Source: Candidatus Omnitrophota bacterium
GTDB taxonomy: Bacteria > Omnitrophota > Gorgyraeia > Gygaellales > Profunditerraquicolaceae
Reading direction: 5' to 3'
Length of the DNA stretch: 50,068 nucleotides
NCBI GenBank assembly: GCA_026387315.1
Contig: JAPLLY010000008.1
Location: 1 to 50,068, forward strand
The notes under the pieces were generated by a model. That model searched no databases. It was not told where the DNA came from and saw only the letters and a list, made by a program, of their open reading frames with translations. A program made the position numbers and the translations under genes. This document shows, in pieces, positions 2,965 to 19,752 of the stretch (positions within the stretch are counted from its first letter, which is position 1; each line of letters opens with the position of its first letter).

Positions 2965-3822
2965 TTATTTAAAACCGGTAAGGCCGCCTTGCATAAACGA
3001 AAGCAAAATCGGGCCTCCAACGACAATGCCAATTACTGGCATAATGAAGAAAATAAGGGGCAGAAGTATTTTGATGGGCGCCTGCAAAGCGATTCTTTCC
3101 CCGCGGTGAAACCTTTGCGCGCGGGCATCTTCGGAAAGTATGGTAAATGCCTCCGCTACCGGCGTACCCATACGCTCCGCCTGAATAATTGTCTGCACGA
3201 AAGAACTCATCTCGGGTATTTCCAGCCTGCGCGACATATCTTTTAGGGCCTGAATACGCGATTTGCCCCATTTTATCTCATCAATAACAAAAACCAGCTC
3301 TTCGGTCATCGGAGTATGCGGAGTCCTTTCAATCACCCATTTTATAGCATTCACAAAATCCAGGCCGGCTTCAATACAAAGCCCTAAAAGATCCACTGTT
3401 TCCGGAAGCCTGCGGGCAATCAAATATTTACGCTTAGCTATTTTGCGTTTTAAATAAAAATCCGGAAGGTTATAGCCGATAGCAATAACAATTATTAATA
3501 TCCAGGGATCGGATCTTCCGCTAACGGCCACAACCAGCGCCCCCAAAAGAATACATAAAAGTATCTTTAAATTAAAAAATGCCTCCGGGGACATACCGAC
3601 ACGCGCGGTTTCCAGGATCTTTTTTAGGCTCGCGGTCATTCCGATGCTCTGCAAAAATGATCCGGTAGGAAAGACGCGCGCGAAATTGAATTTGGGCTTC
3701 TGGAACTTAACACCCAAATCATCCTGAGGTATGCGCAAAAAAGTGCTCGGTTGGGAAGAAATGAAACTCCAAACCACCAGGCCTATTGAGCCCAGAATAA
3801 AAAGAAATATAACTATTTCCAT
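2965..3822 (-). CDS. tadC: Tad pilus inner-membrane platform protein TadC
   Basis: A 285-residue type II secretion F-domain protein. An N-terminal membrane segment is followed by two hydrophobic segments around residues 85-120. The cytoplasmic T2SSF region includes LPETVDLLGLCIEAGLDF, ELVFVIDEIKWG and VQTIIQAERMGTPVAEAF, and a C-terminal pair of membrane helices closes the protein. This matches TadC in length and layout. It starts one base after the stop of TadB, with which it would form the inner-membrane platform driven by the CpaF ATPase. It is the last gene of the locus; I see no strong terminator behind it. Confidence 0.92.
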   Translation of the reverse strand: MEIVIFLFILGSIGLVVWSFISSQPSTFLRIPQDDLGVKFQKPKFNFARVFPTGSFLQSIGMTASLKKILETARVGMSPEAFFNLKILLCILLGALVVAVSGRSDPWILIIVIAIGYNLPDFYLKRKIAKRKYLIARRLPETVDLLGLCIEAGLDFVNAIKWVIERTPHTPMTEELVFVIDEIKWGKSRIQALKDMSRRLEIPEMSSFVQTIIQAERMGTPVAEAFTILSEDARAQRFHRGERIALQAPIKILLPLIFFIMPVIGIVVGGPILLSFMQGGLTGFK

Positions 3823-3823
3823 A

Positions 3824-4669
3824 TTATATTTGGATTGTACTAAATTTCTTAATCAGAATCATACCGACGCTCTGCAAGATTACCGCGATGATCAGAAGCA
3901 TCCTGCCTAAATCACTGTTGAGCATAATATCAAAATGGTGCTTATTCACTGAAAGGACCCAGGCCGCAAACGCGATAGGCAGAAAAGACATGATCATCCC
4001 TTGCATCCTTCCTTGCAAAGTAAGGGTCTTAATACTCTCCTTTAATTTACGGTTATCTCTAATCGTTACGGACAAACGGCTAAAAACCTTAGGTAATTCA
4101 CCGCCTGTTTCGCGGGCAACCAGAAGCGCGTTAACCACTAAACCAAACTCATCAATATTCATTTTTTTATTCAGGCGATCAAGGCACTCCTCTAAAGGTA
4201 TGCCCATCCTATTCTCACTCACCACCAGGCCTAACTCCTGGCTCATCGGCGCGGGCATCTCCTCAACCAACACTTCCAGCCCCTGTAAAAGGCTTAATCC
4301 GCCTCTTATACAGCTAGAGAGCATGTTAATCGCGTCCAAAAGCTGCTCATTGAACTTGCGGATCCTAAGCTTATAGCGCGTCTTCAAAATAAGGCTTGGG
4401 ATGGCCACGCCGGCAAGTACGCCTAAAACCATAAAAATTTGCGATCTTAAAAGAATATACCCCCCCGCGCCAAAAATCAAGGGGAGGATAAAATAAAGCC
4501 TGACGATATTCTTAGGGCTCTTGTCATAAAACATCTTATCCATTTCTTTAGCAAACACAGCCTCCTTCCGACGCTGCCAGGATTGTATCTTTTGCACTAA
4601 AATAGGCAAAAGGCTAAAAGAAATTAAAATAACTGAACATAAGATCAGAATATTAAGTAAGAAAATCAT
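3824..4669 (-). CDS. tadB: Tad pilus inner-membrane platform protein TadB
   Basis: A 281-residue T2SSF-domain protein with an N-terminal membrane helix, a further hydrophobic pair around residues 60-90, and a conserved cytoplasmic block containing LLDAINMLSSCIRGGLSLLQ, SENRMGIPLEECLDRL and LLVARETGGELPKVF. The C-terminal helices are typical of TadB. It pairs with TadC immediately downstream. About twenty bases separate it from the small Flp pilin upstream. Confidence 0.92.
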   Translation of the reverse strand: MIFLLNILILCSVILISFSLLPILVQKIQSWQRRKEAVFAKEMDKMFYDKSPKNIVRLYFILPLIFGAGGYILLRSQIFMVLGVLAGVAIPSLILKTRYKLRIRKFNEQLLDAINMLSSCIRGGLSLLQGLEVLVEEMPAPMSQELGLVVSENRMGIPLEECLDRLNKKMNIDEFGLVVNALLVARETGGELPKVFSRLSVTIRDNRKLKESIKTLTLQGRMQGMIMSFLPIAFAAWVLSVNKHHFDIMLNSDLGRMLLIIAVILQSVGMILIKKFSTIQI

Positions 4670-5333: not shown

Positions 5334-6917
5334 TTAGCTAATACCGCTTATTCTTGAATAATACGTATCCTCAAATGCCCCCCCTATATCTCCGCCATCG
5401 AATCCAGACGTGCTGAAACTTGTGGGGCCTTGTAAAATACCATTTTCGTCCTCCCAAAATATTTTAACGGTGCATTTCGTAGTCCAGGCTGGTGGGTCTA
5501 GTGTAACAGATTTAATATTAATAACCATCATGCCCGGATAATCGCTATCATCAAGATAAGTTGTCACATTCTCTAAGGTTCTAACCGATTGGACACCTGG
5601 CCGCTCAGCCCAAACATTTTCCCAAATCAATATATTAAGCTGTCCCAACATCGGTATCGTCAATTTTTCCCCTGAGAGAGAGTTAATCTGCTCTAACCAC
5701 GTGGTGGCACACCTTTGGAACTGGGACAATGTCTGTTGTTTTTGGCGGGCTTTGTGATAATATGGATCAGGATTACAATATTCCGAATCACAGCATTCTT
5801 TCCCTTTAACTGTTAGATTATAAATTTCCATCCCCAAATCTTTATTTGCAGTTAATCTATCGGAAATTCCTAACATATTATTTGTTAAGGTTCCAGAAGC
5901 TCTAATATTGAAAGGGTCATCTGTAATCGTGGAAGCCGCGATAGAAAGACAGGGGATAGCAATGACAGCCAGAGACTTTTTCTGTGGATAATTCCATTTG
6001 GTACACTTGAGCTCATAGGATGATATTATCGGCAAATCCAAAGTTACGGTAGTTCCGCCATATCTGGGATCCCCATTAAGGTGCTTACCTGCCTCCCATT
6101 TATAGGTTGCCGTGTTAGAGGGGGGGTCGTAAAACTTGCCTGTTGCCAGCCAATAATTAAATTCATCCCCCAGCGCGTTCGTAAGATGAGCTGACGTGGA
6201 ACTGTTAGAAAAAGCATAGTATAACCCGGTTCGCCTGGATTTATGATAAGCCCTATCCATAAAATCTTTCGCCTCACTAAAATTCTGCGTCTGATTTTCC
6301 TTAAAAAAATCAGTAATTTTTTGCATATATTGGGTGAGAATATAAAAAGCCCCAAGGCATTCGGCTGACGCCAGAGCCAGCTCCGCGGCTTTGTTATTAT
6401 GATTAGCTCCGTTTCTCTGATTATCCCATATCTTGCAGTCCTTTTTCGAAATTATGATATCATCTAACGCCAACTGAGCAGATTTTAATGCCTCTTGGCT
6501 ATAGTAGAGCGCGTTATCGCTTGCGTTTACCGTCAAATAACCTTTCGCCAGCTGATAAAGAGTCCTGTAATGGCCACACATCTCCAGATAATAATATTTC
6601 ATTCTCTTGTAATATTGATAGGTATCATCCGGGCTCATGTATTGCCCAAAATTATCATTCGCGGCATTTGGGGCAGCCTTGTTCCGATCCACTAACTTAT
6701 TAAAAGCGGCTGCCCAGCAAGAAGCAGCGGCTAGAGACCCGGCATCCGCGGCATTAGAAGCGCGAGTCTTAGCTTTAGCGCCTTCTCCGACCCCAATGGT
6801 GAGAATAACCGCGACCAGCAATCCGGCCAGGCAAATAAGTAAAAAAGGAAAAATTTGCCCCGATAAATCGCTCCTTGGTTTAAAATGCCTATTTCTAGCG
6901 TACCAGGAAAAAAACAA
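5334..6917 (-). CDS. tadG: TadG-like pseudopilin/pilus protein
   Basis: A 527-residue protein. The N-terminus has a short basic region, then LSGQIFPFLLICLAGLLVAV, a hydrophobic helix ending in IGVGEGAKAKTRASNAADAG. That run (N-terminal helix followed by the NAADAGSLAAA motif) is typical of TadG. The rest is a large, mostly polar extracytoplasmic region with several cysteines (KECCDSEYC around residue 370). The start codon is TTG, supported by AGAGGAG six bases upstream; no ATG lies near it. It follows two TadE-like genes, the usual arrangement. Confidence 0.78.
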   Translation of the reverse strand: MFFSWYARNRHFKPRSDLSGQIFPFLLICLAGLLVAVILTIGVGEGAKAKTRASNAADAGSLAAASCWAAAFNKLVDRNKAAPNAANDNFGQYMSPDDTYQYYKRMKYYYLEMCGHYRTLYQLAKGYLTVNASDNALYYSQEALKSAQLALDDIIISKKDCKIWDNQRNGANHNNKAAELALASAECLGAFYILTQYMQKITDFFKENQTQNFSEAKDFMDRAYHKSRRTGLYYAFSNSSTSAHLTNALGDEFNYWLATGKFYDPPSNTATYKWEAGKHLNGDPRYGGTTVTLDLPIISSYELKCTKWNYPQKKSLAVIAIPCLSIAASTITDDPFNIRASGTLTNNMLGISDRLTANKDLGMEIYNLTVKGKECCDSEYCNPDPYYHKARQKQQTLSQFQRCATTWLEQINSLSGEKLTIPMLGQLNILIWENVWAERPGVQSVRTLENVTTYLDDSDYPGMMVINIKSVTLDPPAWTTKCTVKIFWEDENGILQGPTSFSTSGFDGGDIGGAFEDTYYSRISGIS

Positions 6918-6932: not shown

Positions 6933-7166
6933 TCACTTAAATAAATAAGTCCGCCCATCCGCGATTGGCACGGCCACAAAAGGCGCGGCTGGCTCACCCG
7001 GGTGATCTTTTGATCCCGCCTGCATCCGGGTACTTTCAAATTCTCCCTGGCGCGCGAGTATATTATTTTTCGACCATGACCATAAAGCTAACAACCCCAT
7101 AATTAAGGCTGTTACAATAATAAAAATCAGCGCGAATTCCAGTATTGATTGCCCTTTCTTTATCAT
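6933..7166 (-). CDS. tadE: TadE-like minor pilin
   Basis: A 77-residue protein starting MIKKGQSILEFALIF, with the prepilin cleavage pattern (Gly before Gln, Glu at +5) and one hydrophobic helix. The rest is a short polar tail. Its ATG overlaps the stop of the upstream gene by four bases (ATGA), so the two are probably translationally coupled. TadE-type minor pilins usually accompany TadG, which follows here. Confidence 0.75.
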   Translation of the reverse strand: MIKKGQSILEFALIFIIVTALIMGLLALWSWSKNNILARQGEFESTRMQAGSKDHPGEPAAPFVAVPIADGRTYLFK

Positions 7167-7789
7167 TCCATGCCCCTTTTCCGCTCCAAACTGCCGCCAA
7201 TATATTTGCCACCAGCCCCCAAATCACTTTTGAGAGAAACAGTCGTGCCGCCAACCCCAACACTGCCATCTATATTATCTTTGGCTGTAAGCGACTTTTG
7301 CGTACTAATATCATCAAGGCTCTCTGTTTTAGAAAAATCAGTGCCAGAACTTAGCTTACTAGTATAACTGAATTTACTCGTAGTTTCTTCACCTGCCTGC
7401 GGCCCGGGCCCAACACTAGGAGGAATCACCGATACTGAACTTCTATTAAGCTCAAAATATGCTTTGGGCGTGGTTTCTTTGCCTCCAACTTTCTTACCAT
7501 CTGACCAAAGGACAGAATTACCACTACCAAATTGTTGTAACTCCCCTATCTCCATAGGGTTGGTTACATTAGGCATCCTGCGGAAATCAATTGTCTCCCA
7601 AGAGGCAGAGTTATTAATCTCTTTTGCCTTCTTCAGGGCCGCGCGAAATGTTTGCTGCATATAAGACTGTTCGCGATTATATTTTTCACTATACTTAATT
7701 AGGATAGAAAAGGCTATAATAATCAACGAGCCCAAAACAGCTAATTCCAGAACTGCCTGGGCTTTCCGGTTCCTTAACATTTTATTCAT
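7163..7789 (-). CDS. Pilin-like protein with Ser/Thr-rich tail
   Basis: A 208-residue protein beginning MNKMLRNRKAQAVLELAVLG. The prepilin pattern is A|QAVLEL with Glu at +5, followed by a hydrophobic helix. The C-terminal 150 residues are rich in serine, threonine, glycine and lysine without recognisable fold. It is translationally coupled to the TadE-like gene downstream. The 100-base gap before it contains two palindromic repeats. Confidence 0.7.
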   Translation of the reverse strand: MNKMLRNRKAQAVLELAVLGSLIIIAFSILIKYSEKYNREQSYMQQTFRAALKKAKEINNSASWETIDFRRMPNVTNPMEIGELQQFGSGNSVLWSDGKKVGGKETTPKAYFELNRSSVSVIPPSVGPGPQAGEETTSKFSYTSKLSSGTDFSKTESLDDISTQKSLTAKDNIDGSVGVGGTTVSLKSDLGAGGKYIGGSLERKRGME

Positions 7790-7889: not shown

Positions 7890-8198
7890 CTAATGGGCAG
7901 GGGGAGCCTTTTGACTATAAGTAGAAGTTGAATCTTCGTTTCCGGTTAACCTTCTCCCGCCGCCCTTAAACTCTTTTGATTCCATTGTTGAGTCTAAAGA
8001 AAACGAGGTATTACTGTCTACCGCGTCTTCTCCCGCTGACTGCTTATCAGATATGATATAATCTGTCAGGTCTTTTACTTTGCCCTGCACGCCCCGCCGG
8101 ATATAAGCTTCCATACCAATAAACGCCAGCCCCACCACGCCAATAATTAGCGCTAAATCAGCTAAATTCTGCCCTCTGCGAAAAAATGCCCCTCTCAC
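7890..8198 (-). CDS. Pilin-like protein with Asp at +5
   Basis: A 102-residue protein with leader MRGAFFRRG, then QNLADLALIIG and a hydrophobic helix, then YIRRGVQGKVKDLTDYI, which matches the RG.QGK block of the neighbouring pilins. Position +5 is Asp where the others have Glu. Its ATG overlaps the end of the preceding gene by four bases. It ends in a polar, Ser-rich tail. Confidence 0.75.
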   Translation of the reverse strand: MRGAFFRRGQNLADLALIIGVVGLAFIGMEAYIRRGVQGKVKDLTDYIISDKQSAGEDAVDSNTSFSLDSTMESKEFKGGGRRLTGNEDSTSTYSQKAPPAH

Positions 8199-8791
8199 AA
8201 ATCGCCCAAAGTTTCATCTGTATACTTATGAGTTACGACTGTGCCATTTTCGTTACTATCACTCCCGCTGCTAGTCTGATCAGAAGTCCGTATAGGCCAA
8301 TCTGCCGCTAATTGATTAGCCTGTGTATATAAATCGTTCAGCGCGTTATACGCATTATTTATCTCAGTAGTTTTCTCATTCAAACCAGGAATTGGGGGTA
8401 CCCACTCGAAGTGGCCATTCCTAACAGCCCCGGCCCCTGTCGTGCCTTCGATAACCGCTTTCACTTCCCAAGTTTTTTTAAGCCCGTATATTAGTTTCAC
8501 CATCCCCTGGATTTCATCCATCTTTGCTTCCAGCGCCAAGTTTGGCTCATTCATATTACCATGCTTAACTTTAGTCCAACTTTCGGCTCCAGCTGTAGAA
8601 ACTAACGTTTTGCTCTCGCTGTTGTTTATATTTGTAATGCCTGGCGCGTATTGCCCTTCGCTTAACTGATCAGCCTGAGAGCGCAAATTCCCCTGAAGGC
8701 CGCGGCTGACATAGACGATCATCGCGATAATTCCGGCAGCCGTTACCCCAATTAACAAAATATACTCCAGGGTCGATTGCCCTCGCCTCAT
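8195..8791 (-). CDS. Long pilin (198 aa)
   Basis: It begins MRRGQSTLEYILLIG, with a prepilin site after Gly4 and Glu at +5, then a helix and YVSRGLQGNLRSQADQL, the same juxtamembrane block as the tandem pilins. The C-terminal 130 residues form an extra domain absent from its neighbours, including LALEAKMDEIQGMVKLIYG and a predicted helix around residues 140-165. It could be an adhesive or tip pilin; that is inference. Confidence 0.78.
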   Translation of the reverse strand: MRRGQSTLEYILLIGVTAAGIIAMIVYVSRGLQGNLRSQADQLSEGQYAPGITNINNSESKTLVSTAGAESWTKVKHGNMNEPNLALEAKMDEIQGMVKLIYGLKKTWEVKAVIEGTTGAGAVRNGHFEWVPPIPGLNEKTTEINNAYNALNDLYTQANQLAADWPIRTSDQTSSGSDSNENGTVVTHKYTDETLGDL

Positions 8792-8801: not shown

Positions 8802-9107
8802 TTACCATGTGTGTACTGTCTCACTTCCAGTCTTTGTCCGCGTATTGTCAGCAGCTGAATCGATTGAGATTACTGACCCGCCGCCGGCTGTCGTATTTTC
8901 GGTTTGATTCAAATGAGTAACTGTGGAGTAATTTGATGAGGTATTTCTCGCGTCATACTGCTCTCCAATCTGATCAGCCGACTCGCGCAATTTACCCTCG
9001 GTTCCTCTTTTCATATACACACCCATAGCAATTAACGCGGCTATAACAAAACCAATTAAAATAACATATTCAAGAGTACTCTGCGCTTTTGTCCTTAGAT
9101 ACAACAT
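8802..9107 (-). CDS. Tandem pilin, type A copy 1
   Basis: A 101-residue pilin starting MLYLRTKAQSTLEYVILIG. The prepilin site is after Ala8, and Glu is at +5. The hydrophobic helix is followed by VYMKRGTEGKLRESADQIGE, then a variable middle (about residues 52-85), then TKTGSETVHTW. The first 51 codons plus the leader are almost identical in DNA to the two other type A copies. TAGGAGGTAA precedes the ATG. Confidence 0.85.
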   Translation of the reverse strand: MLYLRTKAQSTLEYVILIGFVIAALIAMGVYMKRGTEGKLRESADQIGEQYDARNTSSNYSTVTHLNQTENTTAGGGSVISIDSAADNTRTKTGSETVHTW

Positions 9108-9116
9108 ATTTACCTC

Positions 9117-9440
9117 CTACTCTGGCACTGCTGTTGTCTTCTGGTTGCCTGTTCTACGCGTAGTCTCTACTACAGTTCCCCTAACCACTCCTCCGCCTGC
9201 GGTGGTATTAGTAGTCCCCGCAGACGTTCTCACTGTATCCATTTCGCTTAAAGAATAATACGGTTCATATTGCTTAAGTATAGTTGTATTAGCATCCGGC
9301 TGGTAATCTACAACACCCCTAATCTTAGCCTGAATTCCGCGTTTAACATAAACCTGCATTGCTACTGCCGCGGCGATAACTAACCCGATAACAATCGCGT
9401 ATTCAGCCGTGCTCTGGCCTGTTTTTTTTAGCCTTAACAT
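9117..9440 (-). CDS. Tandem pilin, type B copy 1
   Basis: A 107-residue pilin starting MLRLKKTGQSTAEYAIVIG. The cleavage site is after Gly8, and Glu is at +5. The helix is followed by VYVKRGIQAKIRG, a variable middle and a tail with TRRTGNQKTT. GGAGG precedes the ATG. The segment 9391-9504, covering the start of the gene and the upstream spacer, is identical over 114 bases to the corresponding segment of type B copy 2. Confidence 0.85.
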   Translation of the reverse strand: MLRLKKTGQSTAEYAIVIGLVIAAAVAMQVYVKRGIQAKIRGVVDYQPDANTTILKQYEPYYSLSEMDTVRTSAGTTNTTAGGGVVRGTVVETTRRTGNQKTTAVPE

Positions 9441-9508
9441 TTTCCTACCTCCTTAAGCTTTGCTTACTCCGCGTCTTAACAACTAAATGCTATCGGCGCC
9501 TCCTGTTA

Positions 9509-9814
9509 CTATGGAGTGGGCAACATTTCTACCGTCTCGTTTCCCGTCTTAGTCTGATTATTATAAGTAATATCTGTAACAATATGGCCATCGCCTGTTA
9601 AACTCTCATGCTGAACCGTGCCAGTTGTTGTGACATAAAAATTCGTAGTATTTCTCGCTTCATACTGCTCTCCAATTTGATCAGCCGACTCGCGCAATTT
9701 ACCCTCGGTTCCTCTTTTCATATACACACCCATAGCAATTAACGCGGCTACAACAAAACCAATTAAAATAACATATTCCAGAGTACTCTGCGCTTTTGTC
9801 CTTAGATACAACAT
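9509..9814 (-). CDS. Tandem pilin, type A copy 2
   Basis: A 101-residue pilin with the same constant N-terminal block as the other type A copies; only single-base differences are visible over about 167 bases. It has a different middle (TNFYVTTTGTVQHESLTGDG) and a conserved QTKTGNETV tail. It lies between type B copies, in strict B-A alternation. Confidence 0.85.
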   Translation of the reverse strand: MLYLRTKAQSTLEYVILIGFVVAALIAMGVYMKRGTEGKLRESADQIGEQYEARNTTNFYVTTTGTVQHESLTGDGHIVTDITYNNQTKTGNETVEMLPTP

Positions 9815-9864
9815 ATTTACCTCCTACTCTGCTTAATGGTTAGCACCATGCGCCGCTGGCAGTA

Positions 9865-10209
9865 CTACGGTATCGCTTCAGTTGTCTGCGTGCCCCACCT
9901 CTTGGTAACCTCTCCGTCAGCTGAAATGGTACTAATCACTTCTCCGTCTTCATTAGTCTGAATAGTTTCATTAGCCGTTCTATTTGTATCCATATTGCTT
10001 GAAGCATAATTCGGCTCATATTGATCAGTTACAAACATCGCGCTCTCTTTTCCATCTACACCCATCGGCTTTTTATCCACATAACCTTTAATCTTAGCCT
10101 GAATCCCGCGTTTAACATAAACCTGCATTCCTATCACCGCGGCGAGAACCAAACCAATCACAATCGCGTATTCAGCCGTGCTCTGGCCTGTTTTTTTTAG
10201 CCTTAACAT
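9865..10209 (-). CDS. Tandem pilin, type B copy 2
   Basis: A 114-residue pilin with the type B N-terminus (KTGQSTAEYAIVIG), juxtamembrane VYVKRGIQAKIKG and its own middle region (MGVDGKESAMFVTDQYEPNY). The tail ends TKRWGTQTTEAIP. The motif QYEPNYASS corresponds to QYEPYYSLS in copy 1 and QFEPRYSTS in copy 3, so a short patch inside the variable part is conserved. Confidence 0.85.
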   Translation of the reverse strand: MLRLKKTGQSTAEYAIVIGLVLAAVIGMQVYVKRGIQAKIKGYVDKKPMGVDGKESAMFVTDQYEPNYASSNMDTNRTANETIQTNEDGEVISTISADGEVTKRWGTQTTEAIP

Positions 10210-10277
10210 TTTCCTACCTCCTTAAGCTTTGCTTACTCCGCGTCTTAACAACTAAATGCTATCGGCGCCTCCTATTT

Positions 10278-10583
10278 CTATAGAGTAGGCAACGCTGCTA
10301 CCGTCTCGTTTCCCGTCTTAGTCTGACTATTCCGAGAAATATCTGTAAAAAGCTGGCCGTCGGTCCCTAAAATCTCCTTTTGTTGAAGCTTAGTGTCTAT
10401 GGTATATGCGCCCGTAGTTTTTCCCGCTTCATACTGCTCTCCAATCTGATCAGCCGACTCGCGCAATTTACCCTCGGTTCCTCTTTTCATATACACACCC
10501 ATAGCAATTAACGCGGCTATAACAAAACCAATTAAAATAACATATTCCAGAGTACTCTGCGCTTTTGTCCTTAGATACAACAT
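10278..10583 (-). CDS. Tandem pilin, type A copy 3
   Basis: A 101-residue pilin with the type A constant block (10430-10596 including the upstream ribosome binding site) and the NSQTKTGNETV tail. The middle (TTGAYTIDTKLQQKEILGTD) is unrelated at first sight to copies 1 and 2 apart from scattered positions. Confidence 0.85.
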   Translation of the reverse strand: MLYLRTKAQSTLEYVILIGFVIAALIAMGVYMKRGTEGKLRESADQIGEQYEAGKTTGAYTIDTKLQQKEILGTDGQLFTDISRNSQTKTGNETVAALPTL

Positions 10584-10618
10584 ATTTACCTCCTACCTTA
10601 AAGTAAAATCCCCCGCTT

Positions 10619-10981
10619 CTACGGAGCCAGAATCTCCTGCTGACCTGTCCTTGAACTATTATCTGATCCTACAATATCCCTAACTATGCCTCCGCCCCTG
10701 CTAACTGTTACGTTCTCTGTAGCGTCCCTAGTTGAGACCATCTTAGTTGAGGTCGAATACCGCGGCTCAAATTGCTTTTGATCATTCACTCCATAATTAG
10801 TGTCACTATGTACAATATCCGGAATATCGGCATCAGTAACACCAGTATCACTGGCATCTGCAATCTTACCTTGAATTCCACGTTTAACATAAACCTGCAT
10901 TCCTATTACCGCGGCGATAACCAGGCCAATCACAATCGCGTATTCTGCCGTGCTCTGTCCTTTTCTCGATCGCCTTAACAT
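10619..10981 (-). CDS. Tandem pilin, type B copy 3
   Basis: A 120-residue pilin starting MLRRSRKGQSTAEYAIVIG, the first of the alternating B-A series in transcription order. The leader differs slightly from copies 1 and 2. The variable part includes QFEPRYSTSTKMVS and the tail SSRTGQQEIL. GGAGG lies eight bases before the ATG. A 35-base hairpin repeat precedes it. Confidence 0.85.
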   Translation of the reverse strand: MLRRSRKGQSTAEYAIVIGLVIAAVIGMQVYVKRGIQGKIADASDTGVTDADIPDIVHSDTNYGVNDQKQFEPRYSTSTKMVSTRDATENVTVSRGGGIVRDIVGSDNSSRTGQQEILAP

Positions 10982-11008: not shown

Positions 11009-11043
11009 AACACCGGCGCAATTCCGCTTAGCGCCGGGTGTCT
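11009..11043. repeat. 35-base hairpin repeat, copy 1
   Basis: This sequence is identical to 19718-19752. CACCGGCGC and GCGCCGGGTG pair around an 11-base loop with one bulged base. It overlaps the stop codon of the upstream short pilin and lies before type B copy 3. It is likely a dispersed intergenic RNA hairpin. Confidence 0.8.
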
Positions 11044-11209
11044 AAAAAGTGACATTGGCTGTTTTGTTGGCCATCTTCTCAGTTAAATTAGTATACACAG
11101 TTAATAATTTTGGCTTAAACATTGCCGCCACCGCGATAATCGCCCCGATGATGCACGCCAAAATAATCACATATTCCAACGTACCCTGGCCCTTTCTAAA
11201 CTTTTTCAT
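11042..11209 (-). CDS. Short Flp pilin
   Basis: A 55-residue pilin starting MKKFRKGQGTLEYVIILACI, with cleavage after Gly7 and Glu at +5. The tail is short (LTEKMANKTANVTF). AAAGGAGG lies five bases before the ATG, the best ribosome binding site in the pilin series, suggesting high expression. It is a candidate major pilin. Confidence 0.85.
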   Translation of the reverse strand: MKKFRKGQGTLEYVIILACIIGAIIAVAAMFKPKLLTVYTNLTEKMANKTANVTF

Positions 11210-11227
11210 CTCTTCCTCCTTTTGATA

Positions 11228-11392
11228 CTATTTTTCCGCGCTATAATAATTTAATTCCCCCTGCTCCTGTTTAAGGCGCGCGTTCATTGAACGCAAGATA
11301 TAGGTAGTCATCGCTATTAACGCCGCGCTAACGATAATAATTAACATCGTATACTCTATAAAGCTCTGTCCGTTTTTAATTCCTGGAGCCAT
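11228..11392 (-). CDS. Short Flp-type pilin
   Basis: A 54-residue pilin starting MAPGIKNGQSFIEYTMLII with the prepilin site after Gly8 and Glu at +5. The tail is charged (ARLKQEQGELNYYSAEK). An in-frame upstream ATG at 11407 is possible, but it only adds MERGK. It lies between two other short pilins in the same orientation. Confidence 0.78.
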   Translation of the reverse strand: MAPGIKNGQSFIEYTMLIIIVSAALIAMTTYILRSMNARLKQEQGELNYYSAEK

Positions 11393-11437
11393 TTTTCCCC
11401 GCTCCATTTTAATTCTGGCCGCGATTCACCTATCTTT

Positions 11438-11593
11438 CTACTTAAATATGTACATACTATAAGTGCTTGCCAGATTCGGCTTAAATATCACCCCCGCCGC
11501 GATAATCGCTCCGACGACAACGGCCAAAATAATCACATATTCCAACGCGCTCTGGCCATTTCTAATTCTGGGAGTCATTTTCTTCATTCCCAT
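11438..11593 (-). CDS. Short Flp pilin, first of the pilin block
   Basis: The core TPRIRNGQSALEYVIILAVV shows the prepilin site after Gly and Glu at +5. The mature pilin would be about 39 residues, ending STYSMYIFK. Several in-frame ATGs exist (11608, 11593, 11587, 11578). GAGG sits close before 11593 and nine bases before 11587, so one of those is likely. A consensus promoter lies about 60 bases upstream. Confidence 0.78.
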   Translation of the reverse strand: MGMKKMTPRIRNGQSALEYVIILAVVVGAIIAAGVIFKPNLASTYSMYIFK

Positions 11594-11699: not shown

Positions 11700-13559
11700 C
11701 TATTTGAAAGCGTTTTCAAACCAAAGCCTCTTGCCATTAGCCGCGTTTATCTGCCGCTCATTCAACCGGCAGTTAAGGTATTCTAAATCTTTTAGGAATT
11801 GATAATCCCGGCTAACCATCATTACGGCTTTGACTCTGCTTTGGCTGGCCATAAGCTTTACCGGAAGCTTATAAAAACATTCGCTGGTAGAAGAAAAATC
11901 CTTTTCTGTGTATTCCGTTGGTAAGAAATGCCAACGCAGATAAAGATCCAGCATATTAATATAATTCACGAAAATATCCCCCAATTCCAGGTTCAATCCT
12001 TCCGTGTCTATCTTGAATCTATCCTGGGAAAGGAACTTTTGTTCGCTGCCCGCGTAAGTAAAAAGCTCGATTTTACGGCTAAAATCCTGGAAGGCCTCCT
12101 CAAAATTAGGCCAGCGGCTTAAATAAATACCGGCCAACTCCTCCAGGCCCATTGCCCGTTCACCGCTATTAAGGATAACCAGGCGGATTTTTTCTTCAAG
12201 GTTAGTTTTTACGGCGCAGCCCTTTAAGGTTACGCTCTGATTCAAAGATGCTCGAAATAAATCAATCTCAATTTCTGCCAAATACAAATCCCGGCCTATT
12301 TCCTTAATCTGTTTTAAATAAAAATCCCCGATTTTCTTTACTTTCCGGCTCAAGGTAAATTGCCAGGGCCAAAGCCCAAAAACTAAAACGCGCCTATGCT
12401 CGTGATTTAAAGGTATATTCTCCAACTCTTCTGATTTGTTTCCAAATAAAGTCAAGCTGTCCAGATAGTTATCTTTTGAACCGATATTTAAAAGGAGGTT
12501 AAAAAAATCTTTGGGGAGAATATCATAACCCGCGGGAGAAAATAAAACTAAGGGCTGGCCCTGAAGAAAATATTTATTTAAGTTATTTTTCAGGCCATAA
12601 ACGGTGTTAGAAAAATCGCAGGGAAAACGCTCAGCCGGCCAACTCGAATACAGTTGGCCATCCAAGTGGATAACGCTTCCGTCGATAAAATGGGCCTTTA
12701 CTCCTTTGGCCTCGGTAAAAACATTAGAAATAATTTTAGCGGTATCTAATTCTATGCCGGTAACCTGCTTGATTCGCGCGTAATAGTTACTTAATTTCTC
12801 TTGAGAATACCGCGCGCCGATCAGATCCTCAAGCGTGGAAGAATTATCTTTGCCGAATAAAGACTTAAATATTAACGCTTCCGTAAGATTTAAAGAGTCT
12901 TCGGGCCTGCCCCCGATTGCCCGGCTGGCGGCCGCGTTAATTTCTTTACTGCCTCCAATTAAGCAATCCAATGCTTTAAGGATTATCGCTCCTGAGCAAA
13001 CCCTGTCTTCCGGCAGAATTTCCGGAGCGGCAAACTCAACTTTTGGCAGGAGCGCTTCTTCTTTGTTTGCTTGCTGTTTAGAGTTCTGCTCTGCTTCTGC
13101 CAGCCTGGCCCATTTTTCTCTCTCCACCCTTAACTCCGCTTCTTGCGCCGCTTTTTCTTCTTCAAGCTTACGCGCCTCTTCTAGAACGCGTTTTCCAGCT
13201 TCATCCTCGGCCTTGAGCTTTTGTTTTTCAAGGCTCAGTTTTTCCTCTACCCTAATACGTTCCTCTTCCTGCAATTTTATAGCCCACTCTTCCGCTTCTT
13301 TAACGCGCTTTTCTTCCAAGCTGGGTTCTTCCAAAACAGGCAGATTAAACTTTTTTTTCTTAAGCTTGCGCCGCCTGCCAATAGGCATACTTAAATTGTT
13401 TTCCTTAAAAATAGCATTGATACTGGATTTCGAAACCTTGATCTGAAGCTGCTCAAGAATTAGTGAGGTTAAATAGCGGCAACTTACCACCGGGTTATTC
13501 TGTTTATTCTCAATAATAAAACTTAAGACTTCAGGTTTAAGCTTGTGAATTACTCCCAC
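11700..13559 (-). CDS. HTH / coiled-coil / DDE-transposase-like protein
   Basis: A 619-residue protein starting at GTG 13559, chosen because GGAGG lies four bases upstream; the longer TTG start at 13586 has no such site. Residues 1-65 look like a helix-turn-helix domain resembling transposase N-termini (KPEVLSFIIENKQ, VSKSSINAIFKENNLS). A basic patch follows, then a highly charged coiled coil of roughly 100 residues. The C-terminal 400 residues resemble an IS4-type DDE nuclease: HFIDGSVIHLDGQ could supply the first Asp, and YLSRWPNFEEAFQDFSRKIE resembles the motif around the last Glu. I see no terminal inverted repeats around the gene and no second transposon end on the 3' side, so it may be a domesticated DNA-binding protein. 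It interrupts the Tad locus. Confidence 0.65.
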   Translation of the reverse strand: MGVIHKLKPEVLSFIIENKQNNPVVSCRYLTSLILEQLQIKVSKSSINAIFKENNLSMPIGRRRKLKKKKFNLPVLEEPSLEEKRVKEAEEWAIKLQEEERIRVEEKLSLEKQKLKAEDEAGKRVLEEARKLEEEKAAQEAELRVEREKWARLAEAEQNSKQQANKEEALLPKVEFAAPEILPEDRVCSGAIILKALDCLIGGSKEINAAASRAIGGRPEDSLNLTEALIFKSLFGKDNSSTLEDLIGARYSQEKLSNYYARIKQVTGIELDTAKIISNVFTEAKGVKAHFIDGSVIHLDGQLYSSWPAERFPCDFSNTVYGLKNNLNKYFLQGQPLVLFSPAGYDILPKDFFNLLLNIGSKDNYLDSLTLFGNKSEELENIPLNHEHRRVLVFGLWPWQFTLSRKVKKIGDFYLKQIKEIGRDLYLAEIEIDLFRASLNQSVTLKGCAVKTNLEEKIRLVILNSGERAMGLEELAGIYLSRWPNFEEAFQDFSRKIELFTYAGSEQKFLSQDRFKIDTEGLNLELGDIFVNYINMLDLYLRWHFLPTEYTEKDFSSTSECFYKLPVKLMASQSRVKAVMMVSRDYQFLKDLEYLNCRLNERQINAANGKRLWFENAFK

Positions 13560-13567
13560 AAATCCTC

Positions 13568-13577
13568 CAGATTGGAC
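13568..13577 (-). promoter_or_regulatory. GTCCAATCTG operator-like repeat, downstream copy
   Basis: GTCCAATCTG lies just after the expected transcription start and immediately before the ribosome binding site of the transposase-like gene. A second identical copy lies on the other side of the promoter. The pair could be an operator bound by the gene's own HTH domain. Confidence 0.5.
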
Positions 13578-13589
13578 ATTATACAATTA

Positions 13590-14015: not shown

Positions 14016-16175
14016 TTATGGTTTGGCGGGCTCAAATATCTCATCCGAAATATCTACTCCGCGCACGCGGATTTCATTCATAAATAAAGGCTTATAACCA
14101 GTAGCGGTAAAATACCCCAGGACTTTTCCCTGAGCATCTACTCCGGTTTGCTTAAAAACAAATATATCATTTATATTTATGTGCATTTCATCTTTCATCC
14201 CCGCGACTTCAGCAATACCCAGGACTTTTCGTGAACCATCCGAGAGCCTGGCGGTATGCACGATCAAATCTACTGCCGAAGAAACCATTTCACGAATAGC
14301 CCTTGCCGGAAGCTCGATTCCGGACATAAGAATCATCGAATCCAGGCGGGATAAAACATCCGCGGTAGAGTTGGCATGAATAGTCGTCATCGAGCCGTCA
14401 TGCCCGGTATTCATGGCCTGAAGCATATCTAATGCTTCGGTTCCGCGGCACTCACCCACAATAATTCTATCCGGGCGCATACGCAAGGTATTGCGAAAGA
14501 GGTCCCTGATGGTCAAGCCGCCTTTGCCTTCTATATTGGGCGGACGAGATTCCAATCTTATCCAATGCCGCTGGTTTAATTTTAACTCCGCGGCGTCTTC
14601 TAAGGTTATAATCCTCTCTCCCTCAGGGATATACTCGGAAAGGGCGTTTAACACCGTGGTCTTTCCCGTGCCTGTTCCTCCGGAAACAATCAAATTCTTG
14701 CGGCATAATACACAGGCCTTGATAAAATTCAGCATCGCCGGAGTAAGCGTTCCAAAATTAAGCAAATCGCTGGTCTTATATCTTTCTTTGCGGAATTTTC
14801 TAATCGTTAACGTGGGGCCGGTAAGGGACACTGGAGAGATAATCGCGTTAACGCGTGAACCATCAACAAGGCGGGCGTCAACCATGGGCACAGATTCATC
14901 GATGCGCCTGCCGATCGGAGCGATAATGCGCTCGATTATTGTTCTGACCTGGCTATTAGAAATAAACTTTTTACCGGTCAGCTCAATCTTGCCAAAACGC
15001 TCAATGTAAACCTCATCCTTATTATTAACCATAATATCAGTAATATCCGGATCGGCTAATAAATCTTCCAGGACGCCTAGGCCCAGAGCTTCATCTAAGA
15101 TCTCTTTGATTAGGTTCTTTCTTATATCTTGCGAAGGAATAAAACTGCCTGCCTCCTCTACCAAAAGATTACTTACGACCGCTCTTACTTGATCTTTTAA
15201 TTCTTCGGCTTTTTTGCGGTCGCTAAAAACTCTAAAATCTAACTTCTTGAGATTCATACTTTCCAGAAGGCGGCTTTGTATCCTGCGCTTAAGGATCATT
15301 ATCTCATCCTTATCTTCATCAACATCCGGCTCAAACACCGATTCTTTTAAATCCTGGCCTTCCCAGAATAGCCCGGACTTCTCCGCCACTGCTTCTTTCA
15401 TCTTAATCTGGTCAATGTTCCTGCGCTCCACAAATATCGTTTTGCTTGAGATCAGGGTATTGGTAAGTTCAAAAAAAGCTAAGGCAATCTTAGAACGGGG
15501 GGAATCGATAACTACGGGCATCCTTTGGTTAACCGCCTGATTAACCAGCTTTCCTTCCGACGGAAATTTTTCAATTATATCCACGGGCAGGTTGGCCCGG
15601 ATCTCCTGCCAGCTTATACTGGATAAAGATTCAGCTCTATTCAGCAAGAGCTTGATCATGCTCAGGGGAAAATGCAGAAACGCTAAAGTATCCAATACCC
15701 ATTTGGTCTGGTAGATAGAGAGTATGTCCGGAGTAGCTACCAGAAAAATAAGGTTAGCCTGGTTCAGAGCGGAAAGGAATAGGTCACTAAAGCTCTTGCC
15801 CGCGTCCACAATAATATAATCATAATCCTTATCGAGAAAAGTAAATATCTCAGGAATCTTTTCGGCATGGAGATATCCGGATTGCTGCGGTTTTAACACG
15901 CCGGCGAGAAAATCAACATTATTGAATTTGGTTTTAACTACAAAATCCTGCTTCTTAGTTAGCTGCGGCTGTTTGGCAAGAAAGCTCATCAGGTCCGCCA
16001 TACACTTCTGGGGGCTAAGGCCGAGCATATGCGCCATATCACCCACTACCTGTGTATCCAAATCAATCGCGCAAACGCGGCTTCCCTCTTTAGCCAGGGA
16101 TACGGCTAGGTTAACGGCAATCAGCGTTTTACCCACGCCGCCCTTACTACTAAATATTATTATTATTTTTGCCAT
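14016..16175 (-). CDS. CpaE-CpaF fusion: MinD/ParA-like protein joined to Tad secretion ATPase
   Basis: A 719-residue protein in one uninterrupted frame. Residues 1-245 form a CpaE/TadZ-type MinD/ParA ATPase with the deviant Walker A KGGVGKT at 10-16, DLDTQ and DYIIVDAGK. A linker of about 60 residues follows. Residues from about 310 to the end are a CpaF/TadA secretion ATPase: Walker A SGGTGTGKTT near 494-503, LEDAAEL, RMRPDRIIVGECRG near 565 and GHDGSMTTIHANS. The two proteins are normally separate genes that localise and power the pilus. The ATG lies one base after the secretin stop. Confidence 0.93.
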   Translation of the reverse strand: MAKIIIIFSSKGGVGKTLIAVNLAVSLAKEGSRVCAIDLDTQVVGDMAHMLGLSPQKCMADLMSFLAKQPQLTKKQDFVVKTKFNNVDFLAGVLKPQQSGYLHAEKIPEIFTFLDKDYDYIIVDAGKSFSDLFLSALNQANLIFLVATPDILSIYQTKWVLDTLAFLHFPLSMIKLLLNRAESLSSISWQEIRANLPVDIIEKFPSEGKLVNQAVNQRMPVVIDSPRSKIALAFFELTNTLISSKTIFVERRNIDQIKMKEAVAEKSGLFWEGQDLKESVFEPDVDEDKDEIMILKRRIQSRLLESMNLKKLDFRVFSDRKKAEELKDQVRAVVSNLLVEEAGSFIPSQDIRKNLIKEILDEALGLGVLEDLLADPDITDIMVNNKDEVYIERFGKIELTGKKFISNSQVRTIIERIIAPIGRRIDESVPMVDARLVDGSRVNAIISPVSLTGPTLTIRKFRKERYKTSDLLNFGTLTPAMLNFIKACVLCRKNLIVSGGTGTGKTTVLNALSEYIPEGERIITLEDAAELKLNQRHWIRLESRPPNIEGKGGLTIRDLFRNTLRMRPDRIIVGECRGTEALDMLQAMNTGHDGSMTTIHANSTADVLSRLDSMILMSGIELPARAIREMVSSAVDLIVHTARLSDGSRKVLGIAEVAGMKDEMHININDIFVFKQTGVDAQGKVLGYFTATGYKPLFMNEIRVRGVDISDEIFEPAKP

Positions 16176-16176: not shown

Positions 16177-17775
16177 TTATTCCAGTTGATAAATTATCGG
16201 AATATCCACCCAAAGCTCTTTCTCCTTGATGCCGGGAGAAAACGGCGGATAAGGGGAAATATCTTGGGCGGCCTTAAGCGCTCCATCATCAAGCACCCGA
16301 TAGCTGGAGGTTTCTTTTAATTTTACATCCAACAAATCGCCTTGGGGCGAAAGCTTAAGGCTTAATTTCACGGTTCCCTGAAACCCGGCTTCTTTGGCGG
16401 GAGCAGGATAAATAAGATTGTCTAAAATTCTTTTCTGCACCAGTTTTGAGTATTTTAAAATGGGATCCTTTATATTATCGTCGCTAATTGAAGGAATGCC
16501 GCGATTAACCCGCGAGGGCTTTAATTCATTTTGTGGTTTCACCTGGCTAACTATACTTGGAGTAAGGGTAATAAAAAGTTCAGTGTCATCGGTAATTGAC
16601 GCGTCTGAATTTGAGCCATCAGTGGTGGCTCTTTGCCTGAAAAATAATCCTAAAACCGGAATCTCAGAAAGCCAGGGGACTCTTTTTAATTCCTCCGTTG
16701 ACTTTTTCTTAATTAAACCTCCAATGGCCATGGTTTGATTGTCATCCAGAAAAAGCTCGGTGGTAGCTGAACGTTTGGTCATTTTATACGCGGAAGCATA
16801 AGATGTTGTCACCGCGTCGCCTACCTCACTAACCGTCACATCAAGATTGAGGTGGATACGCCCGGTATCCGTAAGCTGGGGCCTAACATTTAAAATAATT
16901 CCATATTCTTTATATTCTACTGAACCGCCGGTAGTGGCGCCAACCGTACCCACAGTTGTCCCCGCGGTAGACATACCGCTTAATATCGGCACCTCTCCTC
17001 CCACAACCAACTTTGCCTCTTTGCCGCTTTGACAAGAAAGCCGCGGCCGCGAAAGAACTCGCGCTTTACCTTCCTTGATCAAAAGATCCAGTTTTAAAGT
17101 AAAAGCGGCCCGAGTCATATCCGCGATCTTAAATAATTTCGCGAAAGAAGACACCCCGGGGGCTATCGCCAGAGAACCCACTTCAGTTAAAGAAATTGAC
17201 TCCGGCCAGGTAAATCCAAGCGTATCTCTAGACCCCCGGTTTAATTCAATTACCTGAACATCAATTTCAATAACTGATTCTTCTTCTTTTACCGCTATTA
17301 AATCAACTGTCTTGTTTTTCAACAGCGCTAAAGCCAGGACAATTCTTTCTTTATCTTTAGCAGATTTTACACTGCCCAAAAGCACCACCCTATCTTCTTC
17401 ATCTTCGGCCCTGGTATAAACGTCGGGCAAATTCAATGATAAAAGTATATTATCTATGCGCCGCTTAATATCATTCGTATCTTCAGTAAATACTTTTAAA
17501 CGATAAGACTGCTCGCCAAAATTATCCCAAACAACCAGCGTGGTATTTCCTGCCGCCTTAGGATTAATGGTCAGCTCGCTTTTGCTAATGTTGGCAACAT
17601 CAGCAATCAGGGGATTGCCAATCGCCACCCTCTTTGGTGAACTGATAGGAAGAACTTGCAATTGCCCTATATAAAGTTTTATTTCTTCATCAACCAAGCT
17701 AGTGGAATAACCATTAAAAGGCAGGGCGGTTATAAAGGTGGCTGCGCATAATAGGCCAAAAAATAACTTTCTCAT
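16177..17775 (-). CDS. cpaC: CpaC/RcpA-type secretin fused to a TonB C-terminal domain
   Basis: A 532-residue protein from the ATG at 17775, chosen over 17787 because AGGAG lies five bases before it. A signal peptide (residues 1-22) precedes a pilus secretin N-terminal domain (about 28-100, with GNPLIADVANISKSELTINP) and a BON-like segment (about 105-170). The secretin domain follows (about 190-395, with VLSRPRLSCQSGKEAKLVVG and GEVPILSG). The last 100 residues (LDNLIYPAPAKEAGFQGTVK, ALKAAQDISPYPPFSP) match the TonB C-terminal domain. The secretin would form the outer-membrane pore of the pilus; the TonB-like tail is unusual. Confidence 0.9.
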   Translation of the reverse strand: MRKLFFGLLCAATFITALPFNGYSTSLVDEEIKLYIGQLQVLPISSPKRVAIGNPLIADVANISKSELTINPKAAGNTTLVVWDNFGEQSYRLKVFTEDTNDIKRRIDNILLSLNLPDVYTRAEDEEDRVVLLGSVKSAKDKERIVLALALLKNKTVDLIAVKEEESVIEIDVQVIELNRGSRDTLGFTWPESISLTEVGSLAIAPGVSSFAKLFKIADMTRAAFTLKLDLLIKEGKARVLSRPRLSCQSGKEAKLVVGGEVPILSGMSTAGTTVGTVGATTGGSVEYKEYGIILNVRPQLTDTGRIHLNLDVTVSEVGDAVTTSYASAYKMTKRSATTELFLDDNQTMAIGGLIKKKSTEELKRVPWLSEIPVLGLFFRQRATTDGSNSDASITDDTELFITLTPSIVSQVKPQNELKPSRVNRGIPSISDDNIKDPILKYSKLVQKRILDNLIYPAPAKEAGFQGTVKLSLKLSPQGDLLDVKLKETSSYRVLDDGALKAAQDISPYPPFSPGIKEKELWVDIPIIYQLE

Positions 17776-17785
17776 TTTTCTCCTC

Positions 17786-17819
17786 ATTTTTCCCCAGCCT
17801 CCGGCGCCTGGGGAAAAAT
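17786..17819 (-). promoter_or_regulatory. Strong hairpin directly before the secretin gene
   Basis: Twelve-base arms ATTTTTCCCCAG (17786-17797) and CTGGGGAAAAAT (17808-17819) surround a ten-base loop. It lies between cpaB and the secretin gene, ends just before the secretin ribosome binding site and has a run of A rather than U on the minus strand. It may be an RNA-processing or attenuation point that sets the secretin level. Confidence 0.6.
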
Positions 17820-17886: not shown

Positions 17887-18783
17887 TTATTTTGATAAAG
17901 GGACTCTTTCTTTGGATAACCCGCGTAAAACTTCAATATATTCATTAGTATCCACTACTGACTCAACGTTTTCCTTGGGTGGCATAATATATTGAAATAA
18001 ACTATCCCAACTAGCCGGAGTCACGGGCTCAATCTTAGCATCAGCCGGAGAGCGCATCACCAGCCGCATCTTACCCTGCTCCTGGACAAAAGCAACAAGA
18101 TTTGACTCCTGAGGCCCTAAGGCCAAGGTAATCAAAATATTCCCACCACTACTACTAGGAGAGGGATCAGCTTTTGTATACCTGCCAGATGAACTGACTA
18201 AGCCGCCGGTATTCTGCCCTACCGCCAAAACTAAAATATTCTGGAATAAAGGTATTACCGCCGTTTGATTGGTTACCTGCCCGTCCTGGCCCTGGATGGG
18301 CATCGGAATTATAGCCAGCACATCAACATAGTCTCCGGGATTAACCATCCCGGATAAAGAAGCAATATTATCTACTACAATGGAAATCGCTCTCTTACCC
18401 GAAGGAGTCACCCCCGCCAGATTTCTGCTGGCTTTTTTTTCATTAATAAGCTTAGAAAGGCTTATCTGTTCGCCTTTAGAGATCGGAGCGACTGAAACCA
18501 TACCGGAAATCCTGTCTAAAGAAGTTACCGCCTGCGGTTGAACAAATTTATTCGGGACAATTGATGATTCAAACATCTCCGGCTCGATCACTGAACCCTG
18601 CGGGATATCCCGCTTAGCCACCAAAACAGCCGTCTGGTTAGACTGCATATTAGCAATTGCCGCCTTAGCTTTCTCTTGCAGAACCTGCCGCTGCTGATCC
18701 AGGTACATTTTAGTCATCACAATTGCCATAATGCCTAAAACTACTCCGCTTATTAAAATAAGCTTCTGCTTTTCGATAGCCAT
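17887..18783 (-). CDS. cpaB: Flp pilus assembly protein CpaB/RcpC
   Basis: A 298-residue protein with an N-terminal membrane helix (about 8-27) and a SAF domain (about 50-115) in VLVAKRDIPQGSVIEPEMF and VSVAPISKGEQISLSKL. The RcpC/CpaB domain follows (RAISIVVDNIASLSGMVNPG, DYVDVLAII, NILVLAVG, LALGPQESNLVAFVQEQGK). CpaB is a periplasmic partner of the secretin. Its ATG overlaps the end of the parvulin gene. Confidence 0.93.
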   Translation of the reverse strand: MAIEKQKLILISGVVLGIMAIVMTKMYLDQQRQVLQEKAKAAIANMQSNQTAVLVAKRDIPQGSVIEPEMFESSIVPNKFVQPQAVTSLDRISGMVSVAPISKGEQISLSKLINEKKASRNLAGVTPSGKRAISIVVDNIASLSGMVNPGDYVDVLAIIPMPIQGQDGQVTNQTAVIPLFQNILVLAVGQNTGGLVSSSGRYTKADPSPSSSGGNILITLALGPQESNLVAFVQEQGKMRLVMRSPADAKIEPVTPASWDSLFQYIMPPKENVESVVDTNEYIEVLRGLSKERVPLSK

Positions 18784-19697
18784 TATTTTATCTCCCCTTC
18801 AAATACTTCGATCTTAGCATCGCGAGAAAGCTTCCCGGTCAACTCTTCAATTGCCTGCTGCTGTTTCATGAAAACAAGAAGGCGGTTAATATCATCCCAC
18901 ATTTCGGACAGAGGTTTTTGTTTGCCTCCGCGTTTGGCTTCCAATTTAACTATGCTGTAACCATCGGGAGTTTTGAATATACTGCTGACCTTGTCTACCT
19001 CTAAAGAATCCGAAAAAGCCGCCGCGCCAAATTGCGCGGATTTTTTATCTTTCTGAATAAACCCTAAACTTCCGCCGTCTTTGGCGCTGGATGCTTTCGA
19101 ATTGCTCTTGGCTAAAGTGGCAAAATCCGCGCCCTGTAAAAGTTGAATCAATATATCCCTCGCCTCCTGTTCGGTATTCGCCACTATTTCTGAAATCTGC
19201 CGCTCCTCAGGTTCTTTATACTGTTCCTTGTAAGCATTATAGTACTCCTCAACTTCTTTAGAGGTGGCGCTAATGCTCTTGGTAATATCCTTAACATCCT
19301 GCAGGACCAGAAGGTCCCGTTTATTTTTCTCAACCGCCTGTTTCACTTCATCGTTCCTATCCAGGCCTATATCCAAAGCATGCTGATAAATTAGAGCCCT
19401 GCGGATAACTTCATTCCTTAAATAATTTACTTTTTTTTCTTTCGTAGTAATCTTTAGCTCCGGACGTTCAGGCGGGACATTAGCGTTATAAAGCTCAATT
19501 TCATCATTAAGATCATCCAAGCCAATCGCGATATTATTTACTTTAGCAACAATAGGCCCCCTTGGCTGGATAGCCGGCTGAGCGGCGATTTTCGGCTCTG
19601 GTTTGCGGCTGACAGCAAAATTATGTTTATCGCATCCTAAGATGGCGCTAAAAAATAGGCCCGTAATCGCGAATAAAATTATCTTACGCTTCACCAT
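18783..19697 (-). CDS. Lipoprotein peptidyl-prolyl isomerase (parvulin type)
   Basis: A 304-residue protein. I choose the ATG at 19697 (MVKRKIILFA) because GGAGG lies just upstream; an in-frame ATG at 19730 lacks one. A lipobox (FFSAILGC, Cys22) indicates a lipoprotein. The middle is a SurA/PrsA-like helical region, followed by a rotamase domain with QISEIVANTEQEARDIL, DFATLAKSNSKASSAKDGG and SLGFI. The chaperone probably acts on periplasmic or outer-membrane components such as the secretin or pilins; its place between the oligosaccharyltransferase and CpaB supports a role in this locus. Confidence 0.88.
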   Translation of the reverse strand: MVKRKIILFAITGLFFSAILGCDKHNFAVSRKPEPKIAAQPAIQPRGPIVAKVNNIAIGLDDLNDEIELYNANVPPERPELKITTKEKKVNYLRNEVIRRALIYQHALDIGLDRNDEVKQAVEKNKRDLLVLQDVKDITKSISATSKEVEEYYNAYKEQYKEPEERQISEIVANTEQEARDILIQLLQGADFATLAKSNSKASSAKDGGSLGFIQKDKKSAQFGAAAFSDSLEVDKVSSIFKTPDGYSIVKLEAKRGGKQKPLSEMWDDINRLLVFMKQQQAIEELTGKLSRDAKIEVFEGEIK

Positions 19698-19717
19698 TGC
19701 CTCCTTGTGTAAAACAC

Positions 19718-19752
19718 AACACCGGCGCAATTCCGCTTAGCGCCGGGTGTCT
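19718..19752. repeat. 35-base hairpin repeat, copy 2
   Basis: This sequence is identical to 11009-11043. It lies in the spacer between the oligosaccharyltransferase stop and the parvulin lipoprotein start. On the transcribed strand it forms a GC-rich stem with an 11-base loop. Confidence 0.8.

Follow-up and report, generated by a model that had tools for sequence, protein, structure and literature searches.

The window, by which we mean the whole stretch of 50,068 nucleotides analysed here, belongs to a 1.8-Mb genome (G000; a MAG of 62 contigs with 5% contamination), and from position 22474 down to 2965 every pilus gene in it lies on the minus strand. Candidatus Omnitrophota MAGs supply the nearest named matches to the window's TadZ-CpaF fusion. 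The run starts with an STT3/PglB/AglB-type oligosaccharyltransferase (19967-22474), the sole one found in the genome, followed by a PPIC-type peptidyl-prolyl isomerase that is kept in the Tad loci of relatives (18783-19730), RcpC/CpaB (17887-18783), an RcpA/CpaC-type secretin (16177-17787), a TadZ-CpaF(TadA) fusion of a ParA-like domain with a T2SSE ATPase (14016-16175), a DUF192 gene and a conserved Tad-locus protein of 628 aa with a transposase-like HTH (11700-13586). The secretin bears a TonB_C domain at its C-terminus, an unusual fusion for a Tad secretin. Three short Flp-like pilins of 46-55 aa come next (11042-11578; class III signal/Flp1_like just under the Pfam cut-off), then six pilin genes of two types, A and B, at 8802-10981, and then more pilin-like proteins: one of 198 aa with a class III signal below cut-off (8195-8791), one of 102 aa with a degenerate class III signal recognised by motif (7890-8198) and one of 208 aa without a Pfam family, in the position of a minor pilin (7163-7789). 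A TadE-like pseudopilin of 77 aa (6933-7166; TadE E=9e-4, below cut-off), a TadG-like protein (5334-6917; Pfam Tad PF13400 over cut-off), a further pilin-like ORF at 4862-4689 and two T2SSF genes, assigned by Pfam to the TadB and TadC platform proteins (2965-4669), complete the run. The six genes of the original prediction are thus present, but the pilin set is wider and extends beyond their interval on both sides.

Judged by its genes, this is a Tad/Flp pilus locus with a complete-looking gene set, in which the CpaF/TadA-type ATPase, the TadB/TadC platform pair, the secretin and RcpC/CpaB are all present, together with Flp-type prepilins carrying a class III signal (by motif) and TadE/TadG-like proteins. 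Among the Pfam families, Tad scored over its cut-off, and Class_IIIsignal, Flp1_like and TadE matched under theirs. No TadV lies inside the locus, and the prepilin peptidase is accounted for by one Peptidase_A24 gene located on another part of the genome (G000:C7). Throughout the order, relatives display the same core order, in which one or more B and one or more A pilins come after the short Flp-like genes.

Several other features of the window deserve mention. In the majority of the Omnitrophota Tad loci we looked at, the 628-aa protein is conserved at this place, with TadZ-CpaF on one side and the pilins on the other; 31 of its sequences were aligned. The N-terminal part is similar to the HTH of transposases (HTH_Tnp_Tc3_2 was detected in 3 of 23 members). 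The protein also carries the motifs LDGQ and "YLxxWPNxEEAF", the latter with acidic residues that are not conserved. It is possibly a domesticated transposase or a DNA-binding regulator. A short, REP-like palindromic repeat, CGGCGCAATTCCGCTTAGCGCCG, occurs at 11014-11036 and 19723-19745 and has 11 copies in the genome at no more than 2 mismatches (reversed control, 0), and the intergenic stretch 2457-2778 holds a tandem array of units of about 37 bp (TCCCTACCCCTTGCGAGGAAGGCTACCAAACGACCAT). Divergent from the Tad/STT3 genes, a FIST sensor protein, a histidine kinase and a response regulator-GGDEF protein follow one another on the plus strand (22878-26501), and control by c-di-GMP is possible.

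The six pilin genes are complete ORFs on the minus strand, transcribed in the order B-A-B-A-B-A, and here the original prediction was borne out down to its coordinates. Each of them has a class-III-type prepilin leader and an RBS-like sequence; behind the leader motif, KAQSTLEY in A and GQSTAEY in B, comes a stretch of about 35 residues, most of them hydrophobic. In order of transcription they are B3 (10619-10981, 120 aa), of a distal type, with a tail 54% identical in amino acids to that of G007_B2; A3 (10278-10583, 101 aa), distal by tail comparison; B2 (9865-10209, 114 aa), of a proximal type, with a tail 52% identical to that of G007_B1; A2 (9509-9814, 101 aa), an extra copy of the distal type; B1 (9117-9440, 107 aa), an extra copy of the proximal type, whose tail groups with those of B2, G007_B1, G012_B1 and G003_B1 (tree support 95/92); and A1 (8802-9107, 101 aa), of the proximal type. 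For all comparisons we divided each pilin into head and tail at 42 codons past the processing-site Gln.

The tracts comprising RBS, leader and head of A1 (8954-9120), A2 (9661-9827) and A3 (10430-10596) are homogenised, with 3 differences between A1 and A2, 1 between A1 and A3 and 2 between A2 and A3, so that the predicted near-identity stands at 1-3 of 167 nt in place of one or two bases. Also as predicted, a 114-bp segment covering the A2-B1 spacer and the start of the B1 leader/head (9391-9504) is exactly repeated over the A3-B2 spacer and the start of the B2 leader/head (10160-10273); this repeat is maximal, being not one base longer on either side. As families, the A repeats (184 nt) reach 96-98% identity and the B/A-end repeats (300 nt) 88%, far beyond chance. 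For type A, then, we found complete pilins with a near-identical hydrophobic head (98-100% amino-acid identity within the genome) and divergent tails. The B heads, by comparison, are only 69-76% identical (pS 0.28-0.43), and the notion of constant N-termini consequently holds for A but much less for B. The predicted lack of relationship between the middles needs similar qualification: the A1 tail does differ throughout, but A2 and A3 differ chiefly at codons 54-84 and are near-identical at their 3' ends (codons 86-101), and all of the tails can still be aligned to orthologs from other species.

The synonymous sites speak most clearly about how this pattern arose. In G000 the A heads differ by a pS of 0.04-0.07, against 0.60-0.65 between the A1 tail and the A2/A3 tails (Fisher ~1e-6 for the A1 head-versus-tail contrast), and in G007 the corresponding A values are 0.00 for the head and 0.58 for the tail; the head-versus-tail contrasts were all significant (Fisher 1e-5 to 1e-11, on rounded counts). 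Between species the A heads are synonymously saturated, at a pS of 0.55-0.80. Moreover, between-species orthologs have equal head and tail pS (0.18/0.17, 0.56/0.59 and 0.68/0.62) and differ in pN, which indicates that there is no general slow-down of the heads at synonymous sites and that the pS gap is specific to copies within one genome. The A1 tail, in turn, is 54-59% identical to the A-proximal tails of three other species and 35-43% identical to those of its own A2 and A3, and a three-residue tail insertion is common to exactly A1, G007_A1 and G012_A1, all of them A-proximal. The head and tail trees of the same genes conflict accordingly. For the heads, an AU test rejected the clade of the position orthologs A1, G007_A1 and G012_A1 (p-AU 2e-51); for the tails, with short and weakly resolved trees, it was the within-genome clades that were rejected (G000 A, p=0.026; G007 A, p=0.0045; G000 B, p=2e-4). 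Old position-specific tail lineages whose heads have been overwritten genome by genome point to gene conversion of the heads or an equivalent recombination. The gene conversion of constant ends put forward originally is thereby upheld, by the within-genome pS gap, by the conflicting trees and by its recurrence in G007, G031 and G040. That intragenomic gene conversion keeps the type A heads near-identical within a genome is, as far as comparison of the genes can tell, well supported, and the same comparison supports, at the species level, vertical inheritance of each tail as that of a distinct subunit. We considered the transposase-like 628-aa neighbour as an agent of the conversion and found no evidence for it.

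The process is recurrent. Among the sampled loci, the head pS does not exceed 0.07 in 6 of 278 within-genome pilin pairs; these six are A-A pairs without exception, they come from four lineages (G000, G007, G031 and G040), and the next pair stands at a pS of 0.28. G040 belongs to another family and is assembled in two contigs; its head bases are identical at 126/126 positions and the tails share 29% of their amino acids. G012 and G003, with two pairs each, are not homogenised (head pS 0.71 and 0.60), from which it follows that the process is neither constant nor obligatory. The number of B-A cassettes, compared across species, varies between 1, 2 and 3 pairs: in the nearest relatives there are two in G007, G012 and G003, and one in G004, G009, G021, G022, G024 and G026. 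As to how the window came by its third pair, the order of three tandem B-A pairs is correct, but the unit of recent duplication is A-B and not B-A. A 769-bp alignment period superimposes A3-B2 on A2-B1, the unit consisting of the A tail end, the spacer and the B head; the A2 tail is closest to that of A3, the two being the closest tail pair of all (pS 0.23), and A2 itself is a mosaic, sharing its head-tail junction AGA-AAT with A1 and its 3' end with A3. The simplest history suggested by these sequences is an ancestral B-A-B-A arrangement that gained one extra [A-B] unit via unequal recombination. The 114-bp identity and the common 3' ends of A2 and A3 would then be due to this extra unit and not to selection on B.

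Could duplication have done everything without any gene conversion, if all the copies were young and their tails had moved apart very quickly, through positive selection or because constraint was relaxed? The [A-B] unit with its 114 bp of exact identity does look recent, as does the A2/A3 tail pair, and duplication of this kind may indeed explain much of A2/A3 and B1/B2. For A1 it is contradicted by the same sequences, since the A1 tail is nearer to the A-proximal tails of other species than to A2 or A3, and since a single duplication date cannot yield both saturated tails and nearly unchanged heads in the same genes; as a full account we hold it to be improbable. Still less probable is an artefact of short-read assembly, in which near-identical repeats were merged or chimerised. 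A contaminated MAG in many contigs, with near-identical repeats of 114-300 bp, is certainly prone to such errors, but the reading frames are intact, the position-orthologous tails stand in the expected order, and the same pattern recurs in three other genomes, the two-contig G040 among them.

The remaining alternative is the one from which the analysis set out, namely that the tandem copies serve as a reservoir of cassettes, with diversification or shuffling of the variable middles altering the exposed pilus surface, for antigenic or receptor-specific variation. In its favour, recombination of the heads is real, A2 is a mosaic at its head-tail junction, copy number differs among species, and the middle 34 codons of A2 and A3 differ by 21 amino-acid replacements as against 2 purely synonymous codon changes. 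With a pN of 0.42 and a pS of 0.31, which do not differ significantly, that middle is compatible with fast or neutral divergence, its pN/pS not being significantly above 1; it gave the only hint (pN at least equal to pS) in a comparison of nonsynonymous and synonymous change that otherwise detected no positive selection. Ortholog tails have a pN/pS of 0.2-0.5 over nine species pairs, which speaks against positive selection between species, and heads one of 0.06-0.19 in most comparisons (G006/G020, with a head pN/pS of 0.44, is an exception and probably mispaired); by these ratios the tails are under relaxed purifying selection. The tails are, furthermore, position-orthologous across species, and conversion affects the constant part, although a variable cassette would need the opposite. 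Searching the genome for silent or partial A copies elsewhere yielded none, and there are thus no silent, promoterless partial donors of the pilE/pilS kind: all six genes are complete, each with its RBS-like sequence. Taken together, these results speak against antigenic or receptor-specific diversification, which we now regard as unlikely.

What we favour over antigenic variation, and consider probable, is a stable multi-subunit Tad pilus with two subunit classes, in which the A heads are converted and the tails are fixed lineages. The six genes would supply a single Tad/Flp-type pilus with structural subunits of two classes. Their N-terminal 45-50 residues (leader and hydrophobic helix) would form the assembly module packed in the filament core, consistent with a predicted helix at residues 6-50 and with type IV pilin biology, and their C-terminal, Ser/Thr/Asn-rich tails of 50-65 residues would be the exposed, flexible part. 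AF2, run on a shallow alignment of 7 sequences only, gave a confident helix at 6-50 and a pLDDT below 50 for the tail; the A and B profiles found no relatives among solved structures, and NCBIfam gave no useful match. The group would descend from an ancestor with a pair of B-A units, B-distal with A-distal and B-proximal with A-proximal, to which the lineage of the window would have added the 769-bp tandem [A-B] unit. Recurrent intragenomic gene conversion, as supported above, keeps the A heads homogenised, probably because all A subunits occupy the same packing position within a mixed filament. A and B presumably co-assemble, and the upstream short Flp-like pilins could be the major subunits, with A and B as minor ones. 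Most likely, the different tails would equip the pilus with several surface chemistries, by which it could attach to surfaces or to cells of a host or prey. This scenario predicts mixed-subunit pili and marks which part of the pilin can and cannot vary. In place of a vague antigenic guess it also offers a specific course of evolution for the Tad pili of a phylum that is uncultured and possibly dependent on hosts: one pilin class has its heads homogenised repeatedly, and the tails survive as separate lineages from species to species. A search of the open-licence PMC literature found nothing on the concerted evolution of Tad pilins.

A further and more tentative lead comes from the oligosaccharyltransferase, whose gene adjoins the pilus genes: its end and the Tad PPIase gene, which lies downstream, are 236 bp apart. 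The six pilin tails contain 14 N-X-S/T sequons, at least one in each, where composition-preserving shuffles lead one to expect 6.2 +/- 2.1; there are 0 in the heads, and the other proteins of the window have 34 against 34.9 expected. STT3 was found in 94 of 384 members of the class, mostly not near Tad genes, and after fetching about 40 STT3 regions we saw the order STT3-PPIase-RcpC-secretin-ZCpaF elsewhere only on contig C27 of G014. The pilin tails of C27 hold 15 sequons against 7.6 expected (z=3.2), and the second Tad locus assigned to G014 shows no excess (1 against 1.6); as G014 is 6% contaminated, C27 may belong to another organism. In G039 STT3 is near the Tad genes but divergent, with no sequon excess. 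An excess also occurs in G054, where STT3 sits on a separate 3-kb contig, and in G048, G031 and G019, where no STT3 was detected; the correlation between STT3 and sequons is incomplete. A general rule that STT3 glycosylates the Tad pilins of Omnitrophota was rejected, given that linkage in those roughly 40 regions is confined to G000 and G014 (plus the divergent G039) and that most genomes with STT3 elsewhere, like most STT3-unlinked Tad loci, have no sequon excess. Bordering STT3, a glycan cluster on the minus strand (26657-44028) encodes GT2 and GT4 glycosyltransferases, two Wzy_C/O-antigen ligase proteins, a Wzt-type ABC transporter with a C-terminal domain, a PF00953 initiating transferase and a radical SAM-SPASM protein; it could be the supplier of the glycan, or else the true context of STT3. 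Pilins N-glycosylated by the neighbouring STT3, and with them a glycan-coated mosaic adhesion pilus as a bacterial counterpart of haloarchaeal PilA, are suggested by the gene order and sequons as a possibility of rather modest probability. Even so, the linked STT3 and the sequon excess turn bacterial N-glycosylation of Tad pilins, of which the open-licence PMC literature yielded no report, into a testable idea.

Among known systems, antigenic variation at Neisseria pilE/pilS works by passing variable segments from partial, silent copies into a single expressed locus. The window resembles it in having pilin copies, gene conversion and a constant N-terminus, and departs from it in that all copies are complete and the converted part is the constant head. 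Within the same phylum, the Tad passages of a report on Velamenicoccus archaeovorus describe a Tad system that is expressed in co-culture with Methanosaeta and proposed to act in host/prey attachment (PMC10066038). This Tad/Flp (type IVc) system, like that of the window, has a secretin, RcpC, CpaF, TadB/C and TadE/G; those passages discuss TadB/C and RcpA and describe no multiple pilin paralogs, head homogenisation or glycosylation (PMC10066038). Unlike V. archaeovorus in its co-culture with a methanogen, the species of the window is uncultured and has no known host. Closer to the preferred mixed-subunit reading are PilE1 and PilE2 of Streptococcus sanguinis, which are encoded in tandem, almost identical over their first 110 residues and divergent in the C-terminal part, and which, being present in comparable amounts, were inferred to form a heteropolymer (PMC4832360); that pilus is of type IVa with two subunits, and the one in the window is a Tad pilus whose subunits fall into the classes A and B. 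Finally, the archaeon Haloferax volcanii has six paralogous type IV adhesion pilins, PilA1-PilA6; their hydrophobic N-terminal (H-)domain is conserved almost throughout, each of them can form a pilus, and some are predicted to be N-glycosylated by AglB (PMC4371748). The window likewise has six pilins, of which those of type A show a comparably conserved head; it differs from Haloferax in alternating two head classes, A and B, in one operon, and in the homogenisation of one of them, A, by gene conversion.
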